From the NCBI GenBank assembly GCA_023091665.1, contig JALJCQ010000026.1:1674001-1738000 (forward strand): a DNA stretch of 64,000 nucleotides. Direction: 5' to 3'. The notes below the pieces were generated by a model, which saw nothing but the letters and a program-made list of their open reading frames with translations, was not told where the DNA came from and ran no database searches. Origin of the DNA: Pythium myriotylum (Eukaryota > Oomycota > Peronosporomycetes > Pythiales > Pythiaceae). Made by a program: the position numbers and the translations under genes. Numbering within the stretch: the first letter of the stretch is position 1; each line of letters begins with the position of its first letter. This document shows, one piece after another, positions 27,155 to 57,335 of this stretch.

Positions 27155-28109
27155 TGACGTGTAGTGGCTGGCGATTTCCCGGGCACGAGTGGTAGCAAGA
27201 CTCACCACGATTTCGGCGAAGGCTCCAGCCGCCGAGCCCGGAAGTACCAAGTACATCGTCGGTGAAGATCCAGCCTTGACAGTGGTTACGATCACTGTCA
27301 TCGGAAGTTGTTCAAGAATCGGGTCTTTGGCAGTGGTTATGATCGCTGTCATTTCAAGTAGCGCTTCGGCGATCGGCCCAAGAATTAGCCAAGTTCTTTT
27401 TATTCTAGTGCAGTCTACTGCAGTACATATTTTAGGACAGAAACCACTAGGATAGGGACCTCCTTTGAATAGTGACATTATCATCGGTAATGACCAGTCG
27501 GTCACTACCGGAAGGGTCGATAGTGACATCGCGACCCTTCACCAAAAGATCTCAAGGAAGGGCTCCCTAGGCGACTTTTCAGGAAAACACAGAGTAGGAA
27601 AAACGATAAGTAAAAAACTCCCCAATTTGCCAAGTCAAGCTCAAGTGAATCGATAGCAATCTTCCTCTTCACCTCAGGGAAGTCGGCCGGCGTCAACAAG
27701 TCCGGTCTGAGGTGAAGGGACATCCAAGTGTGGGAAGGGCGCTTCGTTCAGCCCAACTCCGCTGGTTGTGATCACTGTCAACCAATCAAGACCCCGTTTG
27801 TATCGAAAGGCCCCCGTTTGCGATCACTGTCAACCACCCAGAGTACACGGGTGTTGCAGTGTTGAGTGGACGTGGAGAGGACTCGGTGCTGAAGATCGTT
27901 GCTGCTGCGATTGCTTGCCCGTGGACTGTGTGAGGCAGTCATACGTGGTGGGTTCCAAGCTCTAACTCTTGCTTCAAAGAGTTCTGAGAGTCACAAGTCC
28001 GGTTTGGAACAAGTCCAAGCAAGTTCCCTAAAGTCTGCGAAGGCGGTGGGAAGTGTCAAGTCCAGCACATACGCCAGTAAGCTGCGAATGTTGACCCTAC
28101 TACACGTCA
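27155..28109 (+). repeat. 5' LTR of element A (955 bp)
   Basis: It begins TGACGTGTAGTGG and ends CTACTACACGTCA, an 11-bp terminal inverted repeat. It holds three exact copies of GATCACTGTCA (about 27290, 27770, 27822) and one variant (about 27342). The first sits in a small palindrome TGACAGTG...CACTGTCA at 27278-27300. It should provide promoter and polyadenylation signals; I could not place them. Confidence 0.95.
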
Positions 28110-28111
28110 TC

Positions 28112-28124
28112 TGGTGCGTATGCC
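28112..28124 (+). promoter_or_regulatory. Primer binding site of element A
   Basis: TGGTGCGTATGCC begins two bases after the LTR, as expected for pairing with a tRNA 3' end (GGCATACGCACCA). The first in-frame gag ATG (28120) lies inside it. The tRNA species is not identified. Confidence 0.6.
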
Positions 28125-30339
28125 AGGAGCAGAGTTAGAAGCCGAACCCAAGACAAGCACGATGGCATCAACACAACAAGAGACCAAGTCGGAAGCGCCG
28201 GTGTTCAACCTTCCGTTCCAACCCGTGGGAGGACGGTTGGACACCAACAAGATCTACAAGTTCTCGGAAGCTGTGTCGATCCGAGAAACATTCATCCGGA
28301 TGATCACGACTCATTCAGCAGATCCGACCAGCTGGTTCTCCGCCTATCGGATCCAGAAAAAATCATGGGCCAATGCAAACATCTCAGTGCTTGACCGTGA
28401 GAAGTTGCTCTCCATGCACTTCGAGACCTATGATCAGGTCATCGAGTTTATGGAACGAGTATTCAAGGCGATGGGATACGAGATAATTCGCCGAGATACC
28501 TTTGGGTTGATTAAGACAGTACCTCCGGAAGCCCTGCTAGCAGATGCCGACTATATGACGTCATTGCTCGTTTCGGAGTATGAATGGGAGTGTTCGCTCA
28601 AGTATTATCAGACTAAGGGCGCAGAGTTCGGTCCAGCGGTATACAAGATCATGGAGGATGCTATGTTTACCCCGCGACCGCACGCCAAACAAATGCAGAA
28701 GGTCACCCAAGAGACGGTAGATGCGGCTCAAGGAGACTCGATTATGAACACCGTCGAGGCCAGCCTCAAGAAGACCAAAGAACGCGCCCAAGCTCTGCCC
28801 GTACAGAAGACCCTCGACTTCGACGGACTCTCCAGTCAGGACTCGACCCCCAACACCAAGAAGAAAACGAAACCAGAAGGTGATCCATGGGCCATATTAG
28901 ACGAGGAGGATGCTGAAGTCGGTGCGACTGCGGTGCTCCGATTGGCTGAAGAAGGGCAGCTAAGCTTGAAAGACGCAGTTCGGGCGCTGAGGGCGCTGAG
29001 CTATGACAATCCTGCGGCGCGCGCTCTTCTCAAGCTCGCGCTCAACAGTGACATTGGCCCCGAGTTTGCCATGGAAGCGTTAGACGCACTGAAGACCATG
29101 GATATGTCTGAAGTAGAAGCCGCGGTGGGTGAAGTCAAGTCGACGGTCCATAAGAGAGCCAAAGGAAAAGCTAAGAATTCGACAGTCGTGGCGAAAGGAT
29201 CTAAGGTTGTGGACAAACCCAGCCAGAAAATCTCGAAGAAGGAAGGTCGAGGCAGGAATACCGACACCGACGGTTCGGCGGCCGAAGAGAGCCGCTCGGA
29301 GAAGCAAAAGCGCGTCAGAAACAAGAAGTCGGTGCGCTTGGTCCAAGACATCCTCTCTTCCGACTCTTCAGATAGTGAAGGTGACGAGGACGAGTGGGAT
29401 GATATGGGATTGCTTGCTCAAGACATCCCGTTTGCGACGAAGTCGACAGAAAGATCTACAATTGCCGTCATCCAGAATGTACAACTCCGCATGTTCGACG
29501 GTCGCAATAGAAGTGTGGAGGAAGCCGTTCGCTGGCTCGCTAACTTCACCTACGCGGCCAATCTGTACAACTGGACAAAAGAACAGCGGCTTGAGGCGTT
29601 TGTCAATAATCTAGGCGGGGCCGTTCGGTTTTGGTGGAAACAATTGCCAAAGGAAGTGAGGAAGAGCTGGACCAAGACACTCAAGCATTTCCACAAGCGC
29701 TACTGTCGTGATGCTCTTTCAGTTCAACGCTCTTATTTCAAAACGTTCCAGCGACAAGATGAAAAGCCAGTTGATTATCTATACCGTCTCAATGCAGCAG
29801 CGCTGAAGGCCGGCATTGACTATGAAGAAGATCCCAAAGAATTCAGTGAGCACCTCGAGTTGTTTTTCGACTCGGCTATCGAAAAGACTCTGCCAACTCA
29901 ACTTCGCTATAGTCCTTTCAAGAGTATGCAGGAACTCGAGCGAGTCCTCATACAGCATGAGACTACGATAGCCAGGAACGCGAAGAAGAATAACCCACAG
30001 CAACCGTCCCCAGCGCCGAAGTCCGAGAAGCCAAGGGTGAACGCCGTCGACATACCATCGCAGGCTGCTCCCGCCCCAGCCTCTCGGGTTCAGTTCGAAG
30101 AACGACAGCCACGACCCCCAACTCCGCCGTCTAGATCCAATCCCTCCGGAAACGACAAACATCAGACTCTCATTTGCGGGGAATGTGGTCGCCGGGGCCA
30201 CAGTGTGGAGAAGTGTTGGAAAAATGAGGTATGCAATCACTGTCATCGGACCGGCCACCCCACGCGAGTGTGTCGGACGTTGCTCGATAGTTTGTTCAAG
30301 CTCCGAGAACAAGTTAGAGGTGGTGAGGTGACAGCCTAG
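28120..30339 (+). CDS. Gag of element A
   Basis: Structural protein of about 739 residues that would coat element RNA. The N-terminal half is helical, with a KAKR-rich and acidic middle (about residues 230-440). A retrotransposon gag core follows (FDGRNRSVEEAVRWLANFTY, then VRFWWKQLP and DYLYRLNAAALKAG). The C-terminal CCHC/CCHH zinc knuckles are CGECGRRGHSVEKC and CNHCHRTGHPTRVC. The start is the ATG at 28120 within the primer binding site, or possibly Met at 28162. The terminating TAG (30337-30339) lies 24 bases, in frame, before a second stop that follows TTAAAC. The element's normal gag end is probably that second stop, and 30337 looks like a CAG-to-TAG change. Confidence 0.9.
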   Translation: MPGAELEAEPKTSTMASTQQETKSEAPVFNLPFQPVGGRLDTNKIYKFSEAVSIRETFIRMITTHSADPTSWFSAYRIQKKSWANANISVLDREKLLSMHFETYDQVIEFMERVFKAMGYEIIRRDTFGLIKTVPPEALLADADYMTSLLVSEYEWECSLKYYQTKGAEFGPAVYKIMEDAMFTPRPHAKQMQKVTQETVDAAQGDSIMNTVEASLKKTKERAQALPVQKTLDFDGLSSQDSTPNTKKKTKPEGDPWAILDEEDAEVGATAVLRLAEEGQLSLKDAVRALRALSYDNPAARALLKLALNSDIGPEFAMEALDALKTMDMSEVEAAVGEVKSTVHKRAKGKAKNSTVVAKGSKVVDKPSQKISKKEGRGRNTDTDGSAAEESRSEKQKRVRNKKSVRLVQDILSSDSSDSEGDEDEWDDMGLLAQDIPFATKSTERSTIAVIQNVQLRMFDGRNRSVEEAVRWLANFTYAANLYNWTKEQRLEAFVNNLGGAVRFWWKQLPKEVRKSWTKTLKHFHKRYCRDALSVQRSYFKTFQRQDEKPVDYLYRLNAAALKAGIDYEEDPKEFSEHLELFFDSAIEKTLPTQLRYSPFKSMQELERVLIQHETTIARNAKKNNPQQPSPAPKSEKPRVNAVDIPSQAAPAPASRVQFEERQPRPPTPPSRSNPSGNDKHQTLICGECGRRGHSVEKCWKNEVCNHCHRTGHPTRVCRTLLDSLFKLREQVRGGEVTA

Positions 30340-30412: not shown

Positions 30413-32358
30413 AAGTGATCTATGTGTGCATGCGAAAACTCGAAATGAAGCAATTCAGATATCGGGTATACATGAAGGATCAAGACGGGAGGAAGAAGAT
30501 CAAGAGATACTAGAAGAAAAAGCAAATGTTGCGCTCGACGAAATCATGAATGCAGAAAAAGAAGGGTTACGAGCGACTGTATATGCATACGTGGGACAAG
30601 AAATGAGTGGGCGAGGGACCTACATGATACGGTGGAGCTATCCCTTCAGGAAGGTGAGAGAAGAGGTTGGTGGAGTGATCATCAGCTGGAGCAGGAAGAC
30701 CCCATACAAGTGTTCGTGAGAGGCGCAGTGAATGACGAGGAGACTCCCCTCTTGCTTGATACGGGGGCTAACATCAGCCTCGTGCATAGCGATTTAGTGA
30801 AGACTCTGAAGCTGAAAGTCCGGAGGTTTGACAGTGATCGCAACTTCTATGGGGTAGGGGATTCACCATTAGCGGCTCAAGGGAAGACCGTGGTAAAGAT
30901 TCGGCTGGGACCCAACTTAGTATATGCGGTGGAGATGTGGGTCGGCGAGTTCGAAGCACGTTCCTTAATCATCCTCGGCACTGACTTTATGGTTCGGGCC
31001 GGGATCCGGATTGATCTCATGGCGCAGGAATGCGCCTGTCCGTATGAAGAGCCAGTACCCATGCTGACCATCCAAGAATTGGGTGACCCTCAGTATGCGG
31101 ATCTATATCAAAGAGCCAGAGAAGCTCAACGGCAGCCTCTAATTCAAGACTTCAGCAATGTCCCTGCAGTTTGCCATGTCGGAGATGTGATTCCCGGCGT
31201 CTTTACTATTGAGGGACTGGACCAGTCAACTATTAACCAAGATGCGCTAGGTGAAGAAGTGTTCTTACATGAAGGTGTGGAGATGTCGGTGGAGGATATG
31301 CAAGGACAGCTGGCGTTAATACCAGAATTCAGTGACGAAGCCCCAGCTCCAGTGGACCTAGATACAGCGGATGTGGGGGAAGAGGAAAACACTCCAGAAG
31401 AATTGGCTCAGCTGCGAGAGGTGCTTAAAGAAGGACAGTTTTGCAGCTCGGGTAATGCCCTTCCCCCCCCCCACCCCCCCCCGGCAAAAGGTGTGGTGTG
31501 TGATATTGAGGTGACGGGGAACGACATAGTGAACGAGAAAGCGCGAAGACTACCTCCGCACCTACTAGGGAAATTGTATGAACTTCTACGTGGGTTGTTG
31601 CGTACAGGGTTAGCGGGACACTCGAATTCAAGCTGTGCATCACCTATTGTCGTGGTCCTCAAAAAGAATGGTATTGATATTCGATTGTGCGTAGACTATC
31701 GTCGAGTCAATCGATTGACTGTGCTGATGGTTTACTCCATGCCCCACATCGAGGGTTTGTTAGACAACTTCGAATCCGTCATGTGGATGTGTTCCTTAGA
31801 CAACGCGAGCGGGTTTTGGGCAGTGCCGTTGACCAAGCGAGCACGACTCATCACGGCTTTCATTTGTCCACTTGGACATTTTGAATGGTTAAGAATGCCT
31901 CAAGGATTCAAGAACTCCCCGCAAATCTATCAACGAATAATTGACAATTGTTTGTGGGCCACAGTCAGATGTCTTAGAAGCCAGGGCCAGGATGTCAAGT
32001 TCGTTGGCTATCTTCCGGATGAAGTACGGGAGTTGGCCGGTAATATGCAAGGGGAAGATCAAGCTACGGATGTGCCCCTGTCTCAGGATGCTTTTCACGT
32101 AGCCGAGGCAGCACCGGCGGATGCTAGACCCGTGCTGTATCGCCGCTCGTATATCGACGACATCAATTTCGGTGCTAGAACTTGGGATGAAATGTGCCAG
32201 ATGCTGAGAGCCTTGTTTGCCTCTTTTAGAGAATGGGGGATTTCCATCAGCTTGCCCAAGAGTGCTTTCGGTAAGAAGTCAGTGGAATTCCTCTCCCACA
32301 TTGTGTCAAGGGAATGTATCTGTAGTGCTCCGAGAAATCTCAAAACAGTGATGGATAT
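30375..32358 (+). CDS. Protease and reverse transcriptase (5' part of pol) of element A
   Basis: The first 85 or so codons lie in the -1 frame relative to gag. Near 30632 the coding moves to a third frame, an indel by comparison with elements B and C (conserved ...GERRGWW). The protease active site is LLDTGANIS. The reverse transcriptase shows DIRLCVDYRRVN, CSLDNASGFWAV (first catalytic Asp) and RMPQGFKNSPQIYQ. An insertion of about 60 residues follows, then YRRSYIDDINF with the catalytic YIDD. The frame is cut after NLKTVMD by element B and resumes in the same frame at 46877. A C9-A-C9 run at about 31465-31483 encodes part of the PR-RT linker. Confidence 0.88.
32355..32358. other. Target site duplication of element B (ATAT), left copy
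   Basis: ATAT is repeated at 46875-46878. Deleting 32359-46878 rejoins element A pol in frame. Confidence 0.85.
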
Positions 32359-33346
32359 TGTGATGATGTGCGATGCCTTTTCGCCAGTTATGGAGAAAAG
32401 GGGTATAGACCCAGCCAAATATATATGTGCAAAAACAGATATACACAGGCCGAGCGAGCTGCGATCCGTTGTGATAATCGCAGCTCTGGCTTCGTACCTC
32501 ACGTTGTGTGTCCCTCTCCTTCGGTGCGGTCCTTTTGAGCTTAAGTAAAGGGGAAATACGTCCACGAGGCGCCTCCCACACGAACTCTGGCGGGGCTGCC
32601 GCATGACCAGACCAAATCGATATACAGATAATACAACAATACAGGCGAGGGCTAGGACGGAAGTTCCCTTCGATCCGCTAGCTCTCTGACCTGGGACGGA
32701 GACTCGCTCGATCCCAAGCAACACTCTTTATAAACTCCACACCAATATGAAATGCGCCAGGTGACTGGCGCAGGATATGAAATGCCTTGGACTCTGGGGG
32801 ACCCAGAATCCTTAGCAGGGGCTTTGATAAGGGTTCGACTCCCCTCTCCACACGCACACCGCAAGAGTCCACCAGCCAACCAGCCAGACTCACGTGCAAT
32901 ATCCACTGGGGCACACTGACGCTAGCGCAGGCTTACCTGGTGTCGTTGCCACGCGTCCTTCCTGGAGCTCGAGTCGACGACTTGGGGGGTTGACGGTGAA
33001 AAGCGAAGTCTCTTAGAAGGGGACCAGCCCCTTAGAGAGCCAGCTTCGCTGGCTCTCAACGGTCACACCTACTTTTGTGACTAGACCTGAGAACTACCTA
33101 CTTTTGGGAATCTGGCGCTGGATAGCCGTTGTCGAGGTCGGTGCTGGGTATGGTACCCAGTACCAGGTGGGTGGCACACTGTGCCGTGGCTACTGCCACC
33201 TCCTCAACCACCGATTATACTCAAACGGCTGGATCTACTCCTATCAGTCCCGGCCAGGTCCAGCCCGTGGGCCGGGTCCCCCTAGGGGGCTGGTCTTCAA
33301 CGGCCGGATGGGAGGTGACCTCGTGAGCACTGGGCACTTCTTCACA
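32359..33346 (-). repeat. 3' LTR of element B (988 bp, complete)
   Basis: On the minus strand it runs from TGTGAAGAAG (33346) to CATCATCACA (32359). Positions 33028-33346 recur at 46556-46874. A hairpin GAGAGCCAG...CTGGCTCTC at 33035-33057 sits at the edge of the shared part. Confidence 0.8.
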
Positions 33347-33357
33347 TCCGCCCTTCA
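33347..33357 (-). promoter_or_regulatory. Polypurine tract of element B
   Basis: The minus strand reads TGAAGGGCGGA directly before the 3' LTR. The core AAGGGCGG is shared with the tract of element A. Confidence 0.6.
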
Positions 33358-33399
33358 CTCATTTCGAGATCGCGGTCGCGCAGCGAAGACGAGCGAGAG

Positions 33400-36228
33400 A
33401 TGAGTGCTCCGGCAAGCAGTGGCATAGTCGCGAACGAGGGCGCGGGTTCCGTTCCTCCGGCTGGGCCTTCTGGTCCGCAGCCAGTGCCCGGGGTGGCGGG
33501 GAGCACGTCGAAGGTTGAACGGCCACCTCTCTGCTCGAACTCGGACGCTAAGACTGACTCTGCTGCTGCCGACGACGACGAACAGATCGGCGAGCTGACG
33601 ATTGAAGAGCTCCGGCCAGATCCTAACCGCGCGCATCCTGACGACCTCGCTCGATTCTTGGCGGACCTGACGGCCAAGCTCCAGGAGGTGGTGAAACACA
33701 CGACAGCACTGATGCCTCGATGCGACGAGGACTCCGAAGATGCCAGCGCCGGGGGGACTGGGGAGCATCCAGGCGAGAAGTCGATTGCGGGCGCCATAGC
33801 CTGGCGGCGAAGTCTGCGGGATCTCCGTTCTCGCCTCATAGTCTTGATGCGCGGCTGGAGTTGGGACCAGCCGCTAGTTGGAGACGCCGCGGCCTTTCTT
33901 CGAGCATGCGTCTGCCCCGAAGTGGACCTGGCGGACGCCGTCGGGCCTAGTGATCTCGATCAGGTGCTCTTGCGTGAGCCTCACGGCGATGGACCATCTC
34001 CACTCGGGCGCGCACTCAGTGAACTTGACTCGCAGCTGCGTCAGCTAGGCGATCCCGGTGACAAATTACTTCGCGCGCAGCTGGTCGGCCGCCGCATTGA
34101 CGAACTCTTCGGCCTTGATGGTTTCATTCGGCGTCTCCTATACACGCTTCAAGTTAATCGCCGGCTTCTCAACCTCCTCCCTGCGCTGATGACTATGGGC
34201 GTGCTTCGGAGTACGAGAACCACGTCGTTGGCGGAGCACAACCAATTCAGCCTGCTATGTCTTGCTCACGTCCAACTCGCCACTGACCATGCCGAGAAAC
34301 TCGAAGAGCTTTTCTTCAGCACGAAGGATAAGCTAGTGGAAGAGCAAGCCTTGGTGAACCGCACGACTGCCGAACTCCTCCGAGCCCCGGAGGAGAAACA
34401 GGCTGCTGCCACTCTGGCGACGACGCTGGACACTGAAGTTGACCGCCTCCGGGCTGGCGTGGGTGAACTCGAAAGTGAGCGCGACCAGCTCCGGGCCGAT
34501 CTCCACCGAACTCAAGACCGAATTCGGCGTCTCCATCGCAAGGTAGAGGAGCTGGAGAATGCGCAGGTGTCGGCCCCTCACTGGACCGACAGCGCCTTGG
34601 AGGACTTGTTCCGATTCACTTGGGTTCACGGACGTGCGGCGGGACGAGCTGACCAGTGGTATTCATTCCTTCGCGCTGCGGTCACGGGCTCGCCAGCCGA
34701 TGTACCCAAGGGCATGGCTCTCATGTGCACGGCTAGTGGCCTGGATACGCCACCTGGACCTCCGCCGCCGGCGATGTCGACGTTGGCTTCTTATCGCCCT
34801 CTCTTCTCCGCAGATGTTTCGGCGATGGCAGGTTTGGACGCGGAGGCCAAGTCTCAGCACCGGTCTGCCAGCAAGCGGCCCGTCAAGCGGACTCTTCCCG
34901 CTTCCAGCGACGATGACAGTGACCGGGAGTCGAAAGGCCAGACGACGTCAGCCCAACCCTCGCCCTCGACGCTTAGCCGTAGGTCGAAGAGCTTGGTCAA
35001 CGACTTGGTGTTGGCGCAACAGTGCCAAGGCGAAGAGACTTCCAGCTCAGAAGGGAGCGAAGACTATCCTAACGCTTCTCGCGACGCCTCGACGGGGACG
35101 CCGGAACGAGGTGGCAAGGCACGTCCTTCCCAAGGTAGCGCGAGTCGGCCGGTCGAGCTCGACGAGACTGAGGACAGCGGCGCGGAGGAGGCGCCTCCAG
35201 CAAGCAAAGAGGACGATGAGTGGGTGGTCGCTGTCGACCTACCGGTGAAGCTGTATGCTGACTGTATCAAACCGATTCGACGCCCTTCGTCCGCTCGCCA
35301 GACTCGACGCTCGTTCATCAAGATCATCTTCCAGGCTCTTGGCCAGGTCCGCGGTCGCAGCTCCACGGTGCTTTATCGGTCGATGACTGAACGCCAGCGT
35401 AAGAAGGTCTATGGCATTGCCACACAGAAGATGCTGGAAGCCACGTCGTTCTACCCCAACTATACACCGGCCAAGTCTGAGATGCCGACTCTGCGCGACC
35501 GTTTGCTCAAGATCACCGTTGAGGAGTACCAAGCTATTCGCGGGAAGAAGCCTTGGAACAAGATGTTCGCGAATCGAGTGAAAGCTTTCTTCCTGTCGAC
35601 ACCTGGCGAATGGTCTGAAGATCAAGCTCGCTGGATAGTCGACGTTTTGCTTTTTATGTACTCGTACCGCGAGGCTTACTGGACCATCGGCCACTGGTTG
35701 ATTATCCCAAAACCACCCAAGAGGCATGCAGTCGGCGCCGAGGGGATGGAGCCTTGGTACGAGCTATTCACATTGCGCGATCAGTACATCGCCAGCTTTC
35801 AAGCCGAGGCGACGAAGTTGAATAACCAGCGGCCTGGAGGTATGAGTCAACTGATTTACTCCGAACCGGCAATCTGGCTCGCGTCGACGACTTGTGCCTG
35901 GATCCCGAGCAGCAAGATCCCTCTGGATGACCAAATTGATGAGTTAGATTCTCTCGAGCCTATCAGGGCCCGCTTGTCGACTGCTCCCGAACGTTTCGTG
36001 GAGGCTTTGCTGCCGGAACAGTTGCAACTCTTGGATGAGAATGTGGACGACGACGGTAACCTCGTCGGGTGGAGTTTCCCACACCCATACAACTCGTCGG
36101 ACCTGTCTGACTGGGAGGCGCTGGCGCCTACTGTCTCGCTCGAAACTTACACTCGCGCTCGTGATGCCAAGGCCAAGAAGAAAGCGGCGCTGGAAGGCTC
36201 GGCCCGTAAACGAGCCAAGTACGACTAA
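33400..36228 (+). CDS. Antisense accessory ORF of element B, unknown function (942 residues)
   Basis: An intact ATG-started frame runs opposite to gag-pol between the integrase/chromodomain and the 3' LTR, starting 54 bases inside that LTR. The N-terminal third is acidic. A coiled coil follows at about residues 285-390 (heptad-like EELENAQ, TLDTEVDRLRAG). A Ser/Asp-rich linker spans about 490-610. A C-terminal globular part (about 615-900) is rich in Trp and aromatic residues (WNKMFANRVKAFFLS, PGEWSEDQARWIVDVL), and the tail is basic (KAKKKAALEGSARKRAKYD), resembling a nuclear localisation signal. I recognise no enzyme domain. Antisense ORFs are known in some large plant Gypsy lineages. It must be transcribed from an antisense promoter in or near the 3' LTR. 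It is unbroken while gag-pol of the same copy is broken. Confidence 0.8.
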   Translation: MSAPASSGIVANEGAGSVPPAGPSGPQPVPGVAGSTSKVERPPLCSNSDAKTDSAAADDDEQIGELTIEELRPDPNRAHPDDLARFLADLTAKLQEVVKHTTALMPRCDEDSEDASAGGTGEHPGEKSIAGAIAWRRSLRDLRSRLIVLMRGWSWDQPLVGDAAAFLRACVCPEVDLADAVGPSDLDQVLLREPHGDGPSPLGRALSELDSQLRQLGDPGDKLLRAQLVGRRIDELFGLDGFIRRLLYTLQVNRRLLNLLPALMTMGVLRSTRTTSLAEHNQFSLLCLAHVQLATDHAEKLEELFFSTKDKLVEEQALVNRTTAELLRAPEEKQAAATLATTLDTEVDRLRAGVGELESERDQLRADLHRTQDRIRRLHRKVEELENAQVSAPHWTDSALEDLFRFTWVHGRAAGRADQWYSFLRAAVTGSPADVPKGMALMCTASGLDTPPGPPPPAMSTLASYRPLFSADVSAMAGLDAEAKSQHRSASKRPVKRTLPASSDDDSDRESKGQTTSAQPSPSTLSRRSKSLVNDLVLAQQCQGEETSSSEGSEDYPNASRDASTGTPERGGKARPSQGSASRPVELDETEDSGAEEAPPASKEDDEWVVAVDLPVKLYADCIKPIRRPSSARQTRRSFIKIIFQALGQVRGRSSTVLYRSMTERQRKKVYGIATQKMLEATSFYPNYTPAKSEMPTLRDRLLKITVEEYQAIRGKKPWNKMFANRVKAFFLSTPGEWSEDQARWIVDVLLFMYSYREAYWTIGHWLIIPKPPKRHAVGAEGMEPWYELFTLRDQYIASFQAEATKLNNQRPGGMSQLIYSEPAIWLASTTCAWIPSSKIPLDDQIDELDSLEPIRARLSTAPERFVEALLPEQLQLLDENVDDDGNLVGWSFPHPYNSSDLSDWEALAPTVSLETYTRARDAKAKKKAALEGSARKRAKYD

Positions 36229-36652
36229 CTCACACCGCGACATAAGGTCCGACTCGTCGATCTTACTTCGTTCTTCTTTCTTCTCCTGCACAGCTCTTGA
36301 TTCCTGCGTGTAGTCCCTAGTCAAGTCGTTCATGCATTTCAATACAACCTTTTTTTTTCTTTTGCCGAGTCCCCTCCTCAGACGCTCCTATCCATTTCGG
36401 ACCTGTATGAACCGACGCAACCAGTCTATAGACCAATGTCGCGCCGGACACGTCAGCAGAAACGCAAGTCGGGGCTCGGCGAGCTAGTGTCTAGCACTGG
36501 GCTAACCTCATGACACATACTCGATGCAAACACAATAGACGCACAGGCGGCGCCTTTTCACGAGTTTCATGTTGCGACTGGGCAACATGGGGACTCGCAC
36601 CCCGTAATCGCTAGCACTTGGCAGCGGAGGCTAGCATCTCCGCTCGGCGCTG
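36229..36652. other. Untranslated spacer between the antisense ORF and the chromodomain of element B
   Basis: The 3' ends of two convergent coding units meet here. No further frame was recognised, and it presumably holds their terminators. Confidence 0.5.
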
Positions 36653-46502: not shown

Positions 46503-46555
46503 TTCTCCGACGCAGGTCGACTGGCCTTCATCTGACAGGAGCGAGAACGGCTTGA

Positions 46556-46874
46556 CCCCTTAGAGAGCCAGCTTCGCTGGCTCTCAACGGTCACACCTAC
46601 TTTTGTGACTAGACCTGAGAACTACCTACTTTTGGGAATCTGGCGCTGGATAGCCGTTGTCGAGGTCGGTGCTGGGTATGGTACCCAGTACCAGGTGGGT
46701 GGCACACTGTGCCGTGGCTACTGCCACCTCCTCAACCACCGATTATACTCAAACGGCTGGATCTACTCCTATCAGTCCCGGCCAGGTCCAGCCCGTGGGC
46801 CGGGTCCCCCTAGGGGGCTGGTCTTCAACGGCCGGATGGGAGGTGACCTCGTGAGCACTGGGCACTTCTTCACA
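46556..46874 (-). repeat. 5' LTR of element B, truncated to 319 bp
   Basis: It matches 33028-33346 of the left LTR without visible difference. The inner 669 bp present in the other LTR are absent; gag sequence starts about 50 bases inside. Confidence 0.85.
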
Positions 46875-49354
46875 ATATGCCATTCCCGACAACTATGAAA
46901 GGTGTGCAGAAGTTCTTGGGAAGTCTCAATTATTATCATCGCTTCATCAACAATTTCGCCACATATGCTGGAGCTCTTTACGAGTTGACAGATGCTAGGT
47001 TGCAGGATGGGACCCAACTTGAGCATGCCCGGACGGCATTTGAACATTTGAAGAAGATGTTGTGCTCCGCGCCTTTATTGCGGCATTTAGACCAGAAACG
47101 ATCACTGTCATTAATACTATATGTCAACACTTGGGCGTATGGATCCGCAGTATGTCAAGAACATGACGGGGTGTTACATCCAGTACGATTCTATAGCAAA
47201 GTATTCCAAGATAATGAACGAGGGTATACGTTGGCCGAGAAAGAAGTGCTGGCGCTTCTCAAGACCTTGGATGCTGCAGTGGATATATTCGCCGGACAAG
47301 AAATTGTTGTGTACGCACGATACAGCACCATGAAGTGGGTATTCACGTCCAAAAGCCTCACTGGACGAGTCGTTCAATGGGGAGCCCTGCTATCGCCCTG
47401 GACATTGAAGATCGTACGTAATGACAAGACTCCAAGCGCCTTGGTGGGTATGCTGGCTGCATCCATTGTACCACCAGAGGCCCTCGATGAAGTGCTAGAT
47501 GACATATCACCCATGAAGATTGCTAGGCCAATGACAGTGATCGCACCCATGCCCAATCTGACCAGAACCACGGTCGGCTATGTAGTGACTTTCGATGGAG
47601 CGGTGAGATCAAAGGGACCGAAGCTCGGATCATTTGGAGCAGTTTTGTGGAGCATACCCACTTGGGACGTTGTAGCAGCGGAATACGGAGCCACCCCAGA
47701 CTCGACGGTGAATGACAGTGAATATCAAGGGTTGATTTGCGGACTGGAACTGGCTCTAAAGCACAAGGTCGTGGATCTGATTGTATGTGGAGACTCGCGG
47801 ATTGTGGTAGGACAAGTGAATGGAGATCTGCGCTGCCACCAACCCAATTTGGTGATCTGGCTAGAACGCTGCCGGGATCTGGTCAAACAATTCAGCAAGG
47901 TTCACCTGCTACACATTGCGCGAAAGTTTAATCAAGCAGCTGACTTGCCGACGCGGCGAGCCCTGAAGGAGGCAAAGGGCGGAGAAATCAGGGATGACAG
48001 TGATCGCGAATCACTGAAATTACTTAATACTCTCCCGGAGTTGCTCTATAGTACAGCGGATGAGATCGTTGATCCAAAAGGAACCAGGGAACAGAACACC
48101 AGTGTGCAAGCAGAGGAATCTGGTGCGATAGTCAACGTGGTCGAGATCCACAGGCCGGAGGTGTTCGTTGCTACTCGTAGTCAGTGGAAACGAACAATTC
48201 CGACGCCAGCAGGTTTTGATTTCGGTGCACAGAGCTTAAGAGAAGAACCTGTGGTTGATATCTCCCGAGACGACGAATGGACACCCTTACATGTCGCGGT
48301 GGAGGAGCTAGAAGCAGCTCAAAAAGAACGCTTCCGACGCATAGCACGGGCCCAAGAGGAGGATAGGTGGTGTAAACCTCTCATTCAGTTTCTGAAGGGT
48401 GAGACATTAACCACTGCCTATGACCAAGTTGACTTAGAACGGTCTCATGACAGTGATCGCATACATCGAAAGAGGCTCCTGCAGCTGGCAAGGGAAGCAG
48501 AATTGTATGTTTTGGATCACCGCGGTGTGTTGTATTATCACCCTACACGAGGACGTCGAGGGCGGAGCAAAGATCCAAGACTCGTGGTTCCAGCCATCAT
48601 GCAAGAAGACATCCTACATGCTTATCATGTTAGTCTGTCGGCTGGAGCTCACCAAGGGGTGGGCAGAACATTTGAAAAGTTGAGAAGCAACTTTCATTGG
48701 CAAGGCATGTATGCAGCAACCGAGAATTATGTAGCAACGTGTGTTGATTGTGCTACGGGAAAAGGGAAACCAAGATATGAAGGAACGTCACCAGGAAACC
48801 TCATTGCTCAGAGACTGTTCCAGATGGTGGCTATGGATTTTGCCACACCTCTGCCACTGACGCCAAGAGGAAACACGGCATTATTGCTTTTCACCTGTTT
48901 ATTTTCCGGGTTCATCATACTAGCACCAGTAACAGGAACGACGACGGACGCCACGGCGGACGCTTACCTGGAATACGTCTTCAAAAGGTTTAGAGCACAA
49001 GAGGTTTTGAGACACGACCGAGACCCTGCTTTCATGAGTTCAGTATTCAGGAGGTTTAGCCGGATGATGAAACACAAACAGAGACCCACTATGGCTTATC
49101 GACCTCAAGCCAATGGTAAACAAGAGAGAAATGTGCAAACTGTTATTCGAGCTATCAAGTTGTATATCGAGGACCCAGAGCAGCGGGATTGGGATCTCTA
49201 CGTCCCGAGACTAGAACTGGCTCTTAACACCAGTGTGACTCTCCACCTCAAACAATCCAGTTTCTACTTGGTACATGGGTGGCATCCTCGCACCATGCTT
49301 GATGCGACGATCCCGCCGAAAGATGGTTCAAAGAGAGAACAAGACACGTTCTGA
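46875..49354 (+). CDS. RNase H domains and integrase (3' part of pol) of element A
   Basis: It resumes in frame after element B with PFPTTMKGVQKFLGSLNYYH, the RT/RNase H connection. The first RNase H includes YTLAEKEVLALLKTLDAAVD. The second, an additional RNase H, includes VTFDGAVRSKG, DSEYQGLICGLEL and VCGDSRIVVGQV. The integrase has HHCC (HVSLSAGAHQGVGRT...CVDC) and D-D-E (VAMDFATPLP, LRHDRDPAF, QANGKQERNVQTV). It ends at a TGA (49352-49354) that lies in frame with the chromodomain segment, so it is a single nonsense codon, not a gene end. Confidence 0.9.
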
Positions 49355-50038
49355 TGGAGAAAAGAGGTGTGCAAGTCACATGAATACGCTATACAGCACG
49401 CCGCAGAAATCCAGCGCAGGGTAATGGAAGAAAGGGCGCGATTACATAACCAAGAGGTCGCAGACGTGAACACTGTCACGGCGAAGACGCAGTATGAGAG
49501 TGGGGAATGGGTTTGGCTGTATCACAGTCTGATGAAAAAAGGATTGACGCGGAAATTGGCTCACCTTTGGCATGGGCCATATGAGGTGGAAGAACGAGTG
49601 TCTGAGGTCGCATATAAACTCAAGATGCTGGATAGTAATTCGCGAGCGTTCCCGATCGTGCATATTTCGCGTCTCAAGCCGTTTGTATTACGAGCAGCAC
49701 GACCTGTTGAAGAAATGGATGAGAGCTTGATTGTCGATGTGTTAGACGAGAGTCTGCTCCCGGAAGATTCGTGGGTTCCAAATGAAGAAGAGGGGGAGTA
49801 CGAGGTGGAAGCCATCTTGAATGACAGGGTGACTCAGACCACAAGGAACGGTCGACAGCTTAAGGAATATTTGGTGAAATGGCTTGGGTATGACGACCCC
49901 ACGTGGGAACCGGAAGACAATTTATCCTGTACCGCGCTGATGTACGACTACGACCTTGCTAGAGCTCGAGAACGACGGGCACTCGCCGCCCAAACGACAG
50001 AAGGAGACGAGAGCCAAAGTGAGGAGGAAGATGAATAA
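49355..50038 (+). CDS. Integrase C-terminus and chromodomain of element A
   Basis: It has the same frame as the preceding integrase, after one TGA. KLAHLWHGPYEV is the GPY/F module. It is followed by HISRLKPF and a chromodomain (YEVEAILNDRV, EYLVKWLGYDDPTWEPEDN) whose aromatic positions Y...W...W look complete. The C-terminus is acidic (SQSEEEDE). The chromodomain identifies the element as a chromovirus. Confidence 0.9.
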   Translation, partial: WRKEVCKSHEYAIQHAAEIQRRVMEERARLHNQEVADVNTVTAKTQYESGEWVWLYHSLMKKGLTRKLAHLWHGPYEVEERVSEVAYKLKMLDSNSRAFPIVHISRLKPFVLRAARPVEEMDESLIVDVLDESLLPEDSWVPNEEEGEYEVEAILNDRVTQTTRNGRQLKEYLVKWLGYDDPTWEPEDNLSCTALMYDYDLARARERRALAAQTTEGDESQSEEEDE

Positions 50039-51339
50039 GCTCCAGGGACAACCAGAACAGAAGAAGGACCAACTGACGATGACAGCACATCTACGATCAC
50101 TGTCACCCCAAGTATGAGTTAATATACTAGGGAATACACGGGTACGATCACTGTCATCGCGGCATAGAATGATGGAATTGCCAGGCAACGGGGTCTGAGA
50201 AATTCAGGCCGACATACCTGTATCCGATCACGGTCACGAGAATACGAAGACGGGACAGGAGTCGAGATCAGTGACTTAGACAAAAACGAAACGAAGAAGA
50301 AAAGAGTTGGGAAAGAGTCAAAGAGCGCGGCGCACGCGCTCGGAGTGAGCTGTGCTGCACGGGAGGTAGTGGGATGAAGACCTTGCAGCACACTTCGCGT
50401 GTCGAAGCGCCGCCAAAGAACGACGAACTACAACTCGGAACAGGCGATTCGCAGATATAAGAAGAATAGCCCATTCAAACGAAACGAGTAAATTAGCCCC
50501 ATCACGCCACAACAAGAGGTTGGCGGATGTCGGTAACGTTCAAGATCCGCGAAGCGCGCCGTGTGATCACAGCTAGTTCAGCGAAGAACGCCCCATAGAA
50601 GGGCGAGAAGCTACCAGACTTACCAGCGAAGAATGTCCCCACAGAAGGGCATGAAGCTGCAGATGTACCCGCGAAGAACGATCACGAGAAGCGGAAGAGA
50701 GAACCGAATGATAACAAGAAGATCAAGAGCCGAGGGGAGGGGTGTGCTGCAGAATACGCCTCCCTATCATCGTTTGGAGTCGACGGTGAGAGCGTGAACA
50801 CCCAGGTTTCAGTGTCTAGTGAAAGAAGAGGACGCTCTTTGTAAACGTAAGATGCGACGCTCAAGGGATCACTAGGAGACTCACCAAGCAATACGAGGTA
50901 ATCGGCGACAATGTCGATATAGTCAGCAAGAGGAAGGACTGGAAGGTCTAAGGAAGGAAATGAGGAATGCCCACGGCGTGTCAGTCAAGAAAGCGGCGTC
51001 TTTCACAAGGCGGCGTGGGAAAAGGCGGTGATGATTGAAAGAAGTCTCTCGGAAACGCTCAAGTAGGGGTAACCCTCAGTGACAGAGGTTGAAGTGGCAG
51101 AGGAGTGTTGAGGAGTATCTGCGATCACTGTCATCAACAGTGTACGAATGATAGGTGAGAATCAATCGGTGAGGTTCAGTTGCAATCACTGTCATCCCCG
51201 CTAAAAGGACGAAGCTTTTGTGGGAGTGTGTGATCACTGTCACTCAGTCAACATTGGAACAACCTACCAATACCCCTCACCCTACGAGCCAGAACCACGA
51301 TACGGAACGCTGTCATTGGTGGATGGACGCGGAAGGAAC
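50039..51339 (+). other. Spacer between pol and the accessory gene of element A, rich in the 11-mer motif
   Basis: Exact GATCACTGTCA copies occur at about 50095, 50146, 51123 and 51231, with near copies at about 50225 and 51183. A frame at about 50603-50842 (AKNVPTEGHEAADVPAKN onward) is open but starts inside a degenerate 45-bp repeat and may be a gene remnant. A promoter for the accessory gene could lie here; none was identified. Confidence 0.55.
50580..50690 (+). repeat. Degenerate 45-bp tandem repeat, about 2.5 copies
   Basis: Units start AGCGAAGAACG (50580), AGCGAAGAATG (50625) and CGCGAAGAACG (50670). Confidence 0.65.
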
Positions 51340-51585
51340 ATGCCCAAGAACGGGAAAGGGAGACTAACGGCCGGGAAGAAAGCCGCCAGCGCGCTGAAGC
51401 CGATAGCAAGCAAAAGAAGACCGGCGCCCAGCACAAGAAGCATGAGCAGGCGAGGAAAGAGGAAGACTCGGGTGGTCTCACCGCGTGAGGCCGCAGAGGA
51501 AGGGAGCAGCGATTCGAACGATGCAGACGAAGAAGTGAAACGGCCTCCGTCGAAAGTCAAGAGGCTCGAGCCTATCGGCCAGTAG
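51340..51585 (+). CDS. N-terminal piece of the accessory (helicase) gene of element A
   Basis: The ATG at 51340 begins a Lys/Arg-rich frame (MPKNGKGRLTAGKKAA, then RRGKRKTRVVSP) that turns acidic. It runs into a TAG at 51583-51585. The overlapping next frame continues with a similar acidic and basic composition, so a one-base indel near 51560-51585 is inferred. The basic N-terminus resembles a nuclear localisation signal. Confidence 0.55.
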   Translation: MPKNGKGRLTAGKKAASALKPIASKRRPAPSTRSMSRRGKRKTRVVSPREAAEEGSSDSNDADEEVKRPPSKVKRLEPIGQ

Positions 51586-54500
51586 ACGAGGAAGAGGAGA
51601 AAGAAGGATCCACGAGATCACCGCCTAAGAAACGACAAGCCGTCCAACGATTGGGGACGGCGGACACTGAAGACCAAGAAGAGGAGGAAAAGGAGGAAGA
51701 ATCTAAGGGCGACACACGAAGCACGAGCGAAAAAGCTGCGGCGTACAATCAAAGGAGGACGGTGCGAGTGAAGGACACTCAAGATCGTCGGTCCTCGTGG
51801 GCCAATGGACAGTATGAGAAATGGAAAGATATGGAAGCGGAGAATAATTTGCGGCCCAAGATCAAGCGGCTGATGATGAAGGATTTGGTGGCCAAGTTCA
51901 ACGACTATTCACAGAAACAAGGGTGGCAACCGCATTCCACTCATGCAATTCGCGCACGGCGTAACAGGGAAGGAGATTCGGCAGCCCGCACGGTTCGGCT
52001 GGACAATTTAGATCGCAAGAGGCTGAACATCCTGTTCCACGAGACGAAGAGCTGGCCCACTGCGACCCGTAAATTCAATGAAGAGCGCGGCACTAATCTA
52101 ACTCGAGATGCAGCGATTCAAGACGCAAGGAGAGTGGAGCTGGATGACAGTGATCGCGAACGTCTTCACGAACTGTACGAAGAATTTGAAGACTGGACTT
52201 CAGCGCTGGAAGTATTTGTAGCCGAAACAGGGCATACATTGACGAAAGAAATTGCTCAGTCGCTTTTAGAGCAACAAGCACCTCCTACGCCCGCGCAAGG
52301 ATTGAAACGACAGCGGTGGACGAACCGGGAGGTAGAACTTCTCAAGGACTATACAAATGTATCACACCTCCGGATTCCAGTCGCTTATCGTGACTTTTGT
52401 CAGCGGATGGTCGAAGAAGAGCCACGATACCAGGTTCGGCCGTATCAATCCTTCTTATACCACCTCCATGAGGTGAGGAGAGCTACGATCGAAGAAGGGG
52501 CCGACCTCCGCCCGTGCCGAGTGTGGACTGAAGATGATTTGAAAGAATTTGAAGCCTTGGCTCGCAACGCGACGTCGAAGTTCAAGTTGGTGCGGGATGC
52601 AGCGAAACAATTCAACTGCACCCGACAATTTTTGAACCAAGTGTACGAACAACAGGTACGGCCAAGGTTGTTCGTAAATTCAACCAGACATCAAGCACCG
52701 ATGGGGGTTAGAGAAGATGACGAAGACCGACTGAGACGACCCGAGCCAGTTGCAGACGATGACTCTGGGCCGGGCGCTATACTCGTTGAGGCAGCGCAAT
52801 CTGAGGAGGTTGCGGGGACTTCTGTCGCGCTGCCGGACCTGGAGGCATTAATCCCGCCTGGGAGCCCCACGGTACGGGGCACAGGGGTTCCAGACGAGAG
52901 CGCCACAGTTGACAGTGATCAAAATCAAGGAACAAGTGATCCGGTTGGTGTTTCCAGGAATGACAGTGATCACAAACAAGATTCAGGAGCCATCAATTTT
53001 GCCCCAGACAATGACGAAGGTCGAGAACCCGGAGAAACCATTTCCGAAGTAACTAGGGGAGATGACAGTGATCGTCTTCGAGTTCCTAGCGCATCCGCCA
53101 TTGTATTAGCAGGTGACAGTGATCGGAGTCTGACTTCTGTGGGCGCAGTCGACGGCGAAGGCCAAGACGTGGTTATCACCCAAGGTGTCGGCGCCGACAT
53201 ACTTGACGCTACTTCCGGGACGTCGGCGGTGGGCGATCCCAATACTGGCAGTGAAGTAGCAGAAGAACGAGTCGTACCACCCTCGCCCGAAGCTGGCGCC
53301 ACGGAAGACAGCGGTGATACAGAGGCGGTTATCAACACTAGGAGGGATCACATTGACCAAAGTCGAACCAATGAAGAAAGGAAGACTGACGATATCAGCT
53401 CTCCTGCGGCAGTCGCGACGCCTCTAGAAGGTTCGTTGAGTGGAGGGGCTTCTGTGAGCGGGGAAGAGGAGAGTACCTCAGATACCGGCACTTTGCGGGT
53501 GGATTTGGATGCAATCCGAGGCGATTATGTGGTTCATAAAGACCCGTGGGTGGCAGAATACCGCACTCCATGTCCATCACCAAGTCAGGATGACAGTGAT
53601 CGCACCTATAGCTATGACCCTTCGGTGTCAGCTTATGAACACACGGAAGTTGGGGAACCAGCAGCAACGCTACCCAGAGAAGACGAAGGTACAGAACCAC
53701 CTGAAGATGCAGTCACGACGGAGAATGATAACACCACCGCGGCTATTACGGAGCAGTCGGCTCTGGTATCGTCGGATGCTCCCCGACCGCATTCATTATC
53801 ATATTCTAGCCCAGTAGAAGATCTCCTCGAATACAACCGTTCAATGGGTGCAGAAGTGAAGCTGCTAAGATGGGACGACCACTATCAAGTACAAGACAAG
53901 GAGGCGATGGCCTGGACGAGTGATGAACTAATTGATTGGGCCTGGAAGAGAGCGGACGCCGACTTGGGCCAAGGTACGAGGTATGAGAAAATTCTGAAGG
54001 AGTGGGCGTACAGTATCCACGAGTCCATGGAAACCCATCACTATCCTCAAGAGTTCCTCGATGAACCAAGGCCCGCGATCAGCTTTAGAAGGTTGACTGA
54101 AATGTGTGTGATGATTTATGCGGCTATCGATCCGGCAAGATTCGAACCCCTACTATTGCGCCACTTCGGAGTTCGCAAATGGGGAAGGCAACCCGAGGCC
54201 TCGAGCTATTGCTGCGCCGGGGAGAAGTGCTGCCTCATGGTAGACTTCACGAGCCCCGGCGTACATTGGGTCAGTATCTGTCGGCATTGGGCTTTTTACG
54301 CCAAACAGCGAGTTTATATGGACGAGTTTCGACCAGTGGACGACTACAGGCTCGCTATGGTGCTGTCCTGCGTACTGCAAGCAAGGCATCAGGTACATGA
54401 TCGACGTCGTGAGTTGCGCGAAATGAAAGCTCGAGGTGAGATGCTGTCAGACAGGTTCTGGGTTGATATCCTTGGTGCGTGCCCAGCCTCGACTTACTTT

Positions 54501-55898
54501 GAGAGATACCATCGTGCGAGCATGAGACCTTGTGCAAAAGCCATGCTGGACTGCATGACAGTGATCGTACCTGGGCGAGCCAACATACAATCTTCGGTGC
54601 ATCGCGATTTCGTGCAGTCGACCAAAGCCACCACGTTCGGGACTTTGGACACGGTAGGCCAAGATGCGACTCGTTACTTTGCCGTGCTCTGTCGCTACGA
54701 CGGGCAGGCTTTCTGGCTGGCCGACATCCGTTGGAAGGTGGCACGGAAACAGAAAGGGTTCTATTGGCGAGGGGAAGAAAGACTCCTTCCTCTCGCAAGG
54801 CGAGCGGCGGTGATAGACGCCTGTACGGAGGTGCCTCTGTTGCCCAAGTTAATGCGCCGAGACACCAAGCTCATTATTCGTGATGACAAGGAGCTTCGAT
54901 TGATCATGAATGGGAAGAATTTCCAGCGACTGTGTGGAGAAGAAAATGATGGACAAGGAGAGCTTACACTCGATCAAGCTTACGCTTTGAACCAGGTGGT
55001 GCTATATCGTGGCATCATTCCCATTCGGGGACCGTTCGGATGTGGGAAGACCAGATTGATCGCGGGAATTATCGCTGTGTACACTGAGGCGTTCCCGCGT
55101 GCAAGAATTTTTGTGACCTCTAAGACCAACACTGCTATTGACGAAGACCTACGGCGGGTAGTAGATGAAGGGCACGTACCGACCTCACGAATTCTGCGGA
55201 TTGGCGAGATGCCCAAGGACGTGGGGGTCAAGTATCAACAATACTATCTGCAATATCTGCTGGATCAATGTCAACAGCCCGGGAGTGCGATGAGAACCTA
55301 TGAGAATCGGCTGTTGGATCAAGCTACGGTCGTGTTCGGCACAACATCAACATTTGGGCGTGAAGATTTATCCAGCTATCCTTGTGTGTTGTTGATCAAC
55401 GATGAAGCGGCCCAGACTGTCGAATGCTCGGTGATACAAGCCATGCGCCCGGCGACCAGGGTTTTCGTCCCCATCGGGGACCCAAACCAACTACCAGGAA
55501 GAGTCGAGTTCCGGGAAGAGCTGGCGGAGTGGTATGAGGAAGGAGACAAGCGGCACAAGTTGAGCTGGAGTTTCCTGCACGGCTGCAGTTACCTCTATGA
55601 GAAGTTCCCGGGAGTGACGCTTACCGCTCAACATCGGTGTCATCGGCAGATCGGCGCATGGGTTGCGGGTTTTTACGATTACGAGCTCAGCCATAAAGGG
55701 CCGCGCTCTGAGCCGCACTTGCAATCTGTCCAAGTGGGTTTCGAGATGACAGTGATCGGAGACAGGGAAGAGCGAAGTAATCAAGCTCGAATGATGGGAA
55801 GGGCTCGAGTAGCTATGATTTCTTGTGAAAATGAAGATCAGAATCGAAACAAGCGGGGTGGCAAGTATGTGAATCAAGTGGAGTTGTGGAAGACGTAG
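51586..55898 (+). CDS. Accessory protein of element A: SANT/Myb-like repeats fused to UPF1-like superfamily 1 helicase
   Basis: A very long frame downstream of pol but inside the LTRs. Residue numbers run from 51651. After an acidic start, about residues 45-365 contain four or five short helix-turn-helix units with repeated Trp and RxxL spacing (SWPTATRKFNEERG, DWTSALEVFVAETG, RWTNREVELLKDYT, WTEDDLKEFEALARNATS), resembling SANT/Myb repeats. A low-complexity acidic linker with five exact copies of the 11-mer spans about 366-720. A domain of unknown type with Cys/His residues follows (about 720-1070). The helicase core has a Q-like motif (LTLDQAYALNQ), Walker A GPFGCGKT (about 1127), Walker B INDEAAQ (about 1251) and motif III GDPNQLPG (about 1276). 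It ends at an in-frame TAG (55896-55898), with motifs IV-VI beyond it. I know of no LTR retrotransposon described with such a gene. Confidence 0.85.
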
Positions 55899-56390
55899 GA
55901 ACTAGTGCTCCAGATAATGCGCGAATGCAAGCGAGCGAAGAAAAGTCAAACGACGTTGTTGATTATCACGCCATACACGGAACAGCGTGTCCGACTCCAG
56001 GAAGTTTTAGACGACGCTCGCCGACGATGGAGCCCCACTCTCGAGATTGATGTGGTTACAATTGACTCTTGTCAAGGCCGGGAAGCCGACATAGCCATCG
56101 TATCGATGACGCGAGTTGGCGGACTGGGTTTCCTCGCAGAGAAGAAGGCAAAAACTCTAGTGGCCTTGACTAGAGCCAAGGATTATCTGTTTGTGTTGGC
56201 TCACCGAGCGACGTTCAAGGCTGACACTTACTGGGATTGCCTCTACATGAGTGCACTCGAGTTGGAGATACCCCAGATTGACGACACGACTACTACAGAC
56301 GACGCCAAGAGGAAGATGAGGGATCGCCGCCTCCACACGCGTTTGTGCTCACCGTCGTCTGCGGGTTCGCAAAGGGCGGGTGACGTGTAG
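55899..56390 (+). CDS. C-terminal helicase domain of the accessory gene of element A, after one in-frame stop
   Basis: It is in the same frame as the preceding segment. It holds motif IV (LLIITPYTEQ), motif V (VVTIDSCQGREADIAIVS) and motif VI (TLVALTRAKDYLFVLAHR), in the order and spacing of AAA_12 in UPF1/SEN1-type helicases. The frame passes through the polypurine tract and uses a TAG ten bases inside the 3' LTR as its stop. It therefore belongs to the element and is not a neighbour gene. Confidence 0.85.
   Translation, partial: ELVLQIMRECKRAKKSQTTLLIITPYTEQRVRLQEVLDDARRRWSPTLEIDVVTIDSCQGREADIAIVSMTRVGGLGFLAEKKAKTLVALTRAKDYLFVLAHRATFKADTYWDCLYMSALELEIPQIDDTTTTDDAKRKMRDRRLHTRLCSPSSAGSQRAGDV
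56371..56380 (+). promoter_or_regulatory. Polypurine tract of element A
   Basis: AAAGGGCGGG directly precedes the 3' LTR and would prime plus-strand DNA synthesis. It is also coding for the accessory protein. Confidence 0.7.
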
Positions 56391-57335
56391 TGGCTGGCGA
56401 TTTCCCGGGCACGAGTGGTAGCAAGACTCACCACGATTTCGGCGAAGGCTCCAGCCGCCGAGCCCGGAAGTACCAAGTACATCGTCGGTGAAGATCCAGC
56501 CTTGACAGTGGTTACGATCACTGTCATCGGAAGTTGTTCAAGAATCGGGTCTTTGGCAGTGGTTATGATCGCTGTCATTTCAAGTAGCGCTTCGGCGATC
56601 GGCCCAAGAATTAGCCAAGTTCTTTTTATTCTAGTGCAGTCTACTGCAGTACATATTTTAGGACAGAAACCACTAGGATAGGGACCTCCTTTGAATAGTG
56701 ACATTATCATCGGTAATGACCAGTCGGTCACTACCGGAAGGGTCGATAGTGACATCGCGACCCTTCACCAAAAGATCTCAAGGAAGGGCTCCCTAGGCGA
56801 CTTTTCAGGAAAACACAGAGTAGGAAAAACGATAAGTAAAAAACTCCCCAATTTGCCAAGTCAAGCTCAAGTGAATCGATAGCAATCTTCCTCTTCACCT
56901 CAGGGAAGTCGGCCGGCGTCAACAAGTCCGGTCTGAGGTGAAGGGACATCCAAGTGTGGGAAGGGCGCTTCGTTCAGCCCAACTCCGCTGGTTGTGATCA
57001 CTGTCAACCAATCAAGACCCCGTTTGTATCGAAAGGCTCCCGTTTGCGATCACTGTCAACCACCCAGAGTACACGGGTGTTGCAGTGTTGAGTGGACGTG
57101 GAGAGGACTCGGTGCTGAAGATCGTTGCTGCTGCGATTGCTTGCCCGTGGACTGTGTGAGGCAGTCATACGTGGTGGGTTCCAAGCTCTAACTCTTGCTT
57201 CAAAGAGTTCTGAGAGTCACAAGTCCGGTTTGGAACAAGTCCAAGCAAGTTCCCTAAAGTCTGCGAAGGCGGTGGGAAGTGTCAAGTCCAGCACATACGC
57301 CTGTAAGCTGCGAATGTTGACCCTACTACACGTCA
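56381..57335 (+). repeat. 3' LTR of element A (955 bp)
   Basis: It is the same length as the 5' LTR. I noticed two differences (C/T near 27812/57038 and A/T near 28076/57302). Confidence 0.95.

Follow-up and report, generated by a model that had tools for sequence, protein, structure and literature searches.

A short DNA word nearly private to a Gypsy-type element of Pythium myriotylum, the putative core of a protein recognition site

Background

Why does one 11-bp word recur along a retrotransposon, in its genes, its non-coding DNA and its terminal repeats alike, and on both strands? The question is raised by a stretch of 64,000 bp from the oomycete Pythium myriotylum (assembly GCA_023091665.1, contig JALJCQ010000026.1, forward-strand positions 1,674,001 to 1,738,000), hereafter the window, to which positions given without a contig or locus name refer. 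Element A (27155-57335) is a Gypsy-type (Metaviridae) long terminal repeat (LTR) retrotransposon, recognised by its LTR pair and by Pfam matches in the expected order: gag, protease, reverse transcriptase, RNase H, integrase (after the reverse transcriptase) and chromodomain. The gag and integrase-core matches fall slightly below the Pfam cut-offs. The word, TGACAGTGATC, is a signal nearly private to the A family. We propose with moderate confidence, from sequence data, that one sequence-specific protein, encoded by the element, recognises a double-stranded site of 17-19 bp with this word at its core, and that selection keeps the site to the benefit of the element.

Abundance of the word

A motif search found 23 exact copies of the word in the window, all of them in A (17 internal and 3 in each LTR), the same numbers as in a preliminary description of this DNA. 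Matches with at most one mismatch number 32, against a mean of 1.61 and a largest value of 6 in 100 dinucleotide shuffles. When the nested Gypsy element B is left out and one LTR is counted (14.7 kb), A contains 20, 6, 5 and 39 sites with 0, 1, 2 and 3 mismatches, while 60 Markov shuffles gave 0.0, 0.37, 5.1 and 40.6. The excess is therefore confined to exact or nearly exact sites, and two-mismatch sites are at background level. The corresponding numbers for B are 0, 1, 3 and 23; the word had been described as absent from B, and no exact copy is found there. Beyond A, the window holds only two one-mismatch matches, at 34914 in B and at 62272 in the neighbouring element C.

Selection on DNA rather than protein

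Coding copies of the word are read as DSD, MTVI, SLS or NHCH. When the codons of five A open reading frames (ORFs) were permuted synonymously, with protein and codon usage kept, the mean was 0.28 exact words and the maximum 2 in 1000 permutations, against 13 observed. At three words of the RNase H-integrase ORF (47100, 47532 and 47995) the alignment with the homologous proteins from B, C, L075 and L076 is gap-free and the residues of the word are missing from them, so that these words arose by substitution and not by insertion. The fourth (48448) is within a stretch found only in A.

Three relatives of A, all shortened (C30:151824-162009, C39:228128-238124 and C19:731880 onward), match it at about 91-97% in the LTR, in gag and in portions of its 3' end, their middles being mostly unalignable to A. 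These middles contain five further independent word positions, all reversed and each with an exact copy in one or more of the relatives. The preliminary description had held that protein selection cannot explain the word. This is borne out by the permutation result, by the flanks that coding and non-coding copies have in common (see below) and by the recurrence of the word in unalignable sequence. Judged on the sequence evidence, the word is independent of protein sequence and of flanking ancestry and appears to be kept at the DNA level.

The LTRs are consistent with this. In LTRs more than 5% diverged, word bases have changed in 11 of 328 cases as against 648 of 6478 elsewhere (Fisher p = 1.3e-5, an optimistic value for reasons given below), and random sets of four 11-mers were equally conserved in 55 of 5000 draws. 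Thirteen LTR loci were compared with a reference LTR from C39, L060 being left out as it overlaps L047. Ten of the 13 span word bases, while L051, L055 and L058 add to the outside count only.

A longer site with regular spacing

The word is the core of a site of 17-19 bp, about rDTGACAGTGATCRyAnmYr. Sites picked by the core alone (24 from A and five from the shortened relatives, 29 in all) share preferences at positions -2, -1, +11, +12, +13, +15, +16 and +17. Among all 26 A sites with at most one mismatch, position +11 holds a purine in 25, +13 an A in 20 and +16 a pyrimidine in 25, preferences of which not one was matched in 400000 simulations. The one-mismatch site at 55263 is the exception at both +11 and +16 and may be a chance match. 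The preferences hold separately in the two classes of sites: +16 is a pyrimidine in 12/12 forward coding and in 10/10 reversed non-coding sites. Such degenerate, position-specific flanks resemble the contacts of a protein, which would read A copies as double-stranded DNA over 17-19 bp at each site.

Nine adjacent gaps between sites fall in the range of 20-120 bp (51, 52, 51, 80, 61, 48, 51, 102 and 51). Five of them measure 51-52 bp, a number that never exceeded three in 20000 random placements of 26 sites. Given nine short gaps, the clustering has p = 2.6e-6, or 2.6e-4 if any three-base bin is allowed. The pairs come from unrelated places: two in the LTR, one in intergenic DNA (50095-50156, minus strand, 51 bp apart by motif search) and two in the linker of the accessory ORF, where four forward words (52910-53124) have spacings of 51, 102 and 51 and unrelated flanks. 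A distance of 51 bp is about five turns of the DNA helix, and units bound five turns apart would lie on one helix face and be able to cooperate.

Distribution in the genome and the origin of a possible reader

Over the 58.7 Mb of the genome the 11-mer has 148 exact copies, against 23 for a backwards-read control. Its count in other copies of the family, a check suggested in the preliminary description, thus does not drop to background. Seventeen of the first 30 11-mer loci cut out hold a single word and have no similarity to A, B or C. The 17-mer TGACAGTGATCRNANNY is far more specific, with 104 copies against 1 for its backwards control in the same 58.7 Mb. Of 100 places listed, 98 look like the A family: 93 are in the window or in located A LTRs or copies, and at five (C30:483072, C30:484255, C33:1000900, C33:1002073 and C39:227494) the 17-mer is that of a site such as 55747 or 54556 of A, on contigs where A LTRs are also present. 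The two places without an A-family assignment (C18:814014 and C24:501792) compare with about 1.75 expected from base counts.

A separate observation concerns three exact copies of ATCTCGATGCA (L072:548, 1042 and 1073), found in a transposase-like ORF that adjoins an A LTR and that we take to be hAT.

This distribution bears on the origin of the reader. A host DNA-binding protein (an insulator, activator or architectural factor) might bind the word, the element having accumulated sites in order to exploit it, much as Su(Hw) is used by the Drosophila gypsy element. A specificity of 17 bases would suit a multi-finger protein and the 51-bp spacing would suit cooperative factors; moreover the shortened C30 and C39 copies match the accessory gene only in its 3' part, yet carry the word. 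However, the 17-mer is at chance level beyond the A family, so that the host would retain a reader with almost no sites of its own, and the sites run through coding sequence instead of forming a single regulatory block. We regard a host reader as possible, if unlikely. The accessory protein of A would be the simplest reader, because the host genome has almost no sites beyond the A family.

Orientation of the sites

Non-coding A sites with at most one mismatch are reversed in 10/10 cases, whereas 12 of the 16 coding sites are forward and 4 reversed (Fisher p = 2e-4), three of these four being one-mismatch copies. Among exact copies only, 7/7 non-coding words are reversed and 12/13 coding words forward (p = 1e-4), in agreement with the opposite orientation reported earlier for non-coding copies. 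Inclusion of the five non-coding positions of the shortened relatives gives p = 1.6e-5. Tolerance at the amino-acid level may explain part of the coding bias, DSD being suited to disordered linkers.

The split could also reflect a signal in RNA. In the sense transcript coding words would mostly read UGACAGUGAUC and non-coding words its complement, and pairing within or between transcripts might serve packaging, dimerisation or the co-packaging of shortened copies. The strength of the orientation split speaks for such a signal. However, spacings of 51-52 bp point to the helical turns of DNA and not to RNA, the purine, A and pyrimidine preferences in the flanks look like protein contacts, and four coding sites are reversed, one of them exact. 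Taken together these observations make an RNA-level signal rather improbable.

GATC and the phased element C

Every exact word ends in GATC, and it might present this tetranucleotide to a host methyltransferase producing N6-methyladenine (6mA). Recombinant Phytophthora DNA adenine methyltransferases (DAMTs) methylate GATC in vitro, according to the part of the published account used here (PMC6211444). A phased signal centred on GATC is also carried by element C, a Gypsy element that occupies 57471-64000 of the window and extends to about 70448 (L067, L068). Its 69 GGATCC and 217 GATC in 13 kb are phased at 10.12-10.15 bp (about 10.14), with A/T dinucleotides (WW) in phase and G/C dinucleotides (SS) in antiphase. 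In element C a sequence period of nucleosome type spans an entire retrotransposon, and about 10.14 bp comes near the value commonly quoted for the twist of nucleosomal DNA. In A, however, GATC outside the words is little enriched (78 vs 63, with the A boundary taken at 33027) and weakly phased (2.2 sd), and the other core bases are equally invariant. Because methylation needs GATC only and not 17 bases, a 6mA mark is unlikely to be the whole story, and we consider it highly improbable as the explanation of the word.

Finally, spread of the words by tandem duplication, gene conversion or insertion of small units, as a 112-bp tandem array that multiplies one word in the C30 and C39 relatives might suggest, deserves next to no credence, since the 23 exact copies in the window share no flanks beyond the site (LTR duplicates excepted), homologous proteins are gap-free at three of the four pol words, and Tandem Repeats Finder reported no word-bearing array in A.

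A candidate reader and its weaknesses

The explanation that we favour, a site read by a protein of the element, would work as follows. The sites, set along the whole of A and its shortened relatives, would be maintained by selection at the DNA level. Their presence from end to end would let the protein coat or mark a copy over its full length, even a shortened one that lacks A's pol. The reader would be encoded by the element, with the accessory ORF as best candidate, and would act in trans, because in shortened copies, which lack A's pol, the sites persist and additional ones occur. The benefit might be a family-specific mark that opens or protects chromatin (anti-silencing, as with Arabidopsis VANC) or that licenses expression. 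The mark is plausibly a VANC-like anti-silencing or licensing signal read by the accessory protein.

A protein recognition site, the reading offered in the preliminary description, is indeed the best (putative) one in view of the permutation result, the shared flanks, the recurrence in unalignable sequence, the LTR conservation and the 51-bp spacing. The label "SANT-like" given there to the accessory protein reflects appearance, as the N-terminus matches no Pfam family above cut-off, both of its single-sequence AlphaFold2 models are poor (mean predicted local distance difference test scores of 37.6 and 52.4), and a fold search yielded no hit better than E = 4.6. Among Pfam profiles the accessory ORFs match helicase domains only, no VANC profile having been compared directly.

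Several points weigh against the favoured explanation. No DNA-binding domain is recognised in the accessory N-terminus, either by Pfam or by the fold search. The split of orientation between coding and non-coding sites is not demanded by a simple binding site. Conservation was measured in LTRs only, whose copies share a common descent, and against a reference LTR selected for its four exact words, which favours the result; the LTR p-values are optimistic on both counts. In LTRs less than 5% diverged the direction is the same but not significant (8/598 vs 316/12536, p = 0.08), and in a separate test of 19 LTR copies 286 of 5000 random sets were as conserved as the words. Regarding coding sites, the second autonomous copy of A, about 99% identical, is too similar to test their conservation, and the C19 relative differs from A at one base of the word at 52145.

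We suggest, tentatively, that in the adjacent Gypsy families A and C the coding sequence bears an identity signal at the DNA level that differs between the two, the 17-19 bp word paired at five helical turns in A and the GATC-centred pattern in C, and that such a signal would be a family-specific chromatin address, read on the helix surface and maintained by selection inside genes. An LTR retrotransposon that retains a long, near-invariant recognition word in its coding sequence would carry the family-specific recognition known from Arabidopsis VANDAL elements (PMC5735166) over to another class of element and, it seems, another lineage, and in it selection at the DNA level would override codon choice in a retroelement. 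The 17-bp word and the accessory protein form a directly testable pair, while A, with C next to it, makes it possible to examine whether the genes of transposons contain chromatin instructions.

Organisation of element A, its relatives and its neighbours

The LTRs, the ORFs and the ORF-free stretch of A are all on the plus strand. Its LTRs are 955 bp long. The 5' LTR (27155-28109) has sites at 27290, 27341 (one mismatch), 27770 and 27822, all reversed, which form pairs 51 and 52 bp apart, and the 3' LTR (56381-57335) has sites at 56516, 56567 (one mismatch), 56996 and 57048. LTR words 1 and 2 stand in imperfect inverted repeats, TGACAGTGGTT, two bases, then GATCACTGTCA (27277-27300; L065:194-217). 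The first inverted repeat is present in A and the relatives, and the second was seen in the C30 and C19 relatives.

The gag ORF (28114-30339) includes the zinc-knuckle word at 30235-30245, in reverse. Described earlier as a copy read as NHCH, this site exists but has one mismatch in A, though it is exact in all three shortened relatives examined. The other earlier coordinates that were compared are correct or one to two bases off (55747 instead of 55748, and 47100-47110 for the SLS copy). The portion of the protease and reverse transcriptase ORF before the insertion (30632-32358) has a word at 30829-30839 read as DSD. A second copy of A, on contig C30, lacks the insert with element B (32359-46874), in which there is no exact word, and delimits it by continuing directly from 32358 to 46875; the two copies are 98.6-99.2% identical over the pieces compared, and the match ends at 53653.

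Beyond the insert, the RNase H and integrase ORF (46877-49354) carries words at 47100 (reverse, SLS), 47532 (MTVI), 47995 (DSD) and 48448 (DSD, in the A-specific stretch), and the integrase C-terminus with the chromodomain (49367-50038) a reversed one-mismatch site at 49468. A stretch with no listed ORF of at least 150 aa (50039-51650) follows, with reversed words at 50095, 50146, 50226 (one mismatch), 51123, 51184 (one mismatch) and 51232. The accessory gene (51651-56390, about 4.7 kb) consists of two ORFs with SF1-type helicase domains. The first (51651-55898), ending in a C-terminal helicase domain (Pfam AAA_11), has forward words at 52145, 52910, 52961, 53063, 53114, 53591, 54556 and 55747 in addition to the reversed one-mismatch site at 55263. 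The second (55905-56390) is the other helicase part (Pfam AAA_12).

In the C30 and C39 relatives, the 112-bp array (L064:512-799; reverse complement of L061 378-709) has the word in every unit seen, with one mismatch in one unit, and its unit length nearly equals 11 turns of 10.14 bp. Separate from this array, a 45-49 bp minisatellite is common to A and the shortened relatives (L065:4059-4441; 50579-50680 in the window). Elsewhere in the genome, eight matches to the RNase H region of A, at about 65-66%, occur in both orientations with a spacing of 19-27 kb, mostly about 21 kb (G000, C22:667338-820670). Copies of a cousin element appear to be clustered there.

After the 3' LTR of element C comes another, partial copy of the LTR (about 505 bp, 96.8%; L068:449-1813). 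Long antisense ORFs with coiled-coil-like stretches are found in C (L067:4122-6422, minus strand, 766 aa) and in B (33400-36228, plus strand, 942 aa). They match no Pfam family above cut-off and are possibly related accessory genes. Away from these elements, the minus strand of the window contains three similar-looking ferric-reductase/NADPH-oxidase-like ORFs (6136-8448, 14800-17424 and 18226-20871), of which the middle one was examined with Pfam.

Comparison with known systems

No report of a private word inside the genes of an LTR retrotransposon was found in the portions of the open-licence literature consulted, which is weak evidence of absence. A parallel within Gypsy-type elements is the Drosophila gypsy insulator, where a host zinc-finger protein reads Su(Hw) sites that stand in one 5' untranslated block. 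Repeated putative binding sites inside a Gypsy-type element are common to both, but those of A run from the 5' to the 3' LTR, across genes and intergenic DNA, and are not gathered in one cluster.

The periodic An/Tn clusters (PATCs) of C. elegans are non-coding A/T runs and are comparable with element C only. Both show an A/T pattern with a period of about 10 bp over long stretches, as far as the PATC data in the extracts used go (PMC7725773). Element C differs in that its WW/SS pattern is centred on GATC and runs through coding sequence.

VANDALs are Mutator-like DNA transposons, unlike A, which is an LTR retrotransposon. In the sections of Hosaka et al. (2017, PMC5735166) considered here, a protein encoded by the element recognises a short motif of one transposon family and acts in trans, and the targets of VANC6 carry a different motif. 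The 9-bp VANDAL motif is described there as mainly non-coding, often tandemly repeated and missing from two coding probes tested. In both systems, as far as these sections show, a short motif is enriched in, and nearly private to, one family, and non-coding motifs keep one orientation (in VANC21 arrays; here 10/10 in A and the five positions in the shortened relatives). The site of A, in contrast, is longer (about 17-19 bp against 9 bp in those sections), sparse and mostly outside tandem repeats, and 16 of the 26 sites found with up to one mismatch are coding. Pfam recognised no VANC homologue in A, no VANC profile having been compared directly. Element A works like a VANC system in its motif pattern but is not a member of it.

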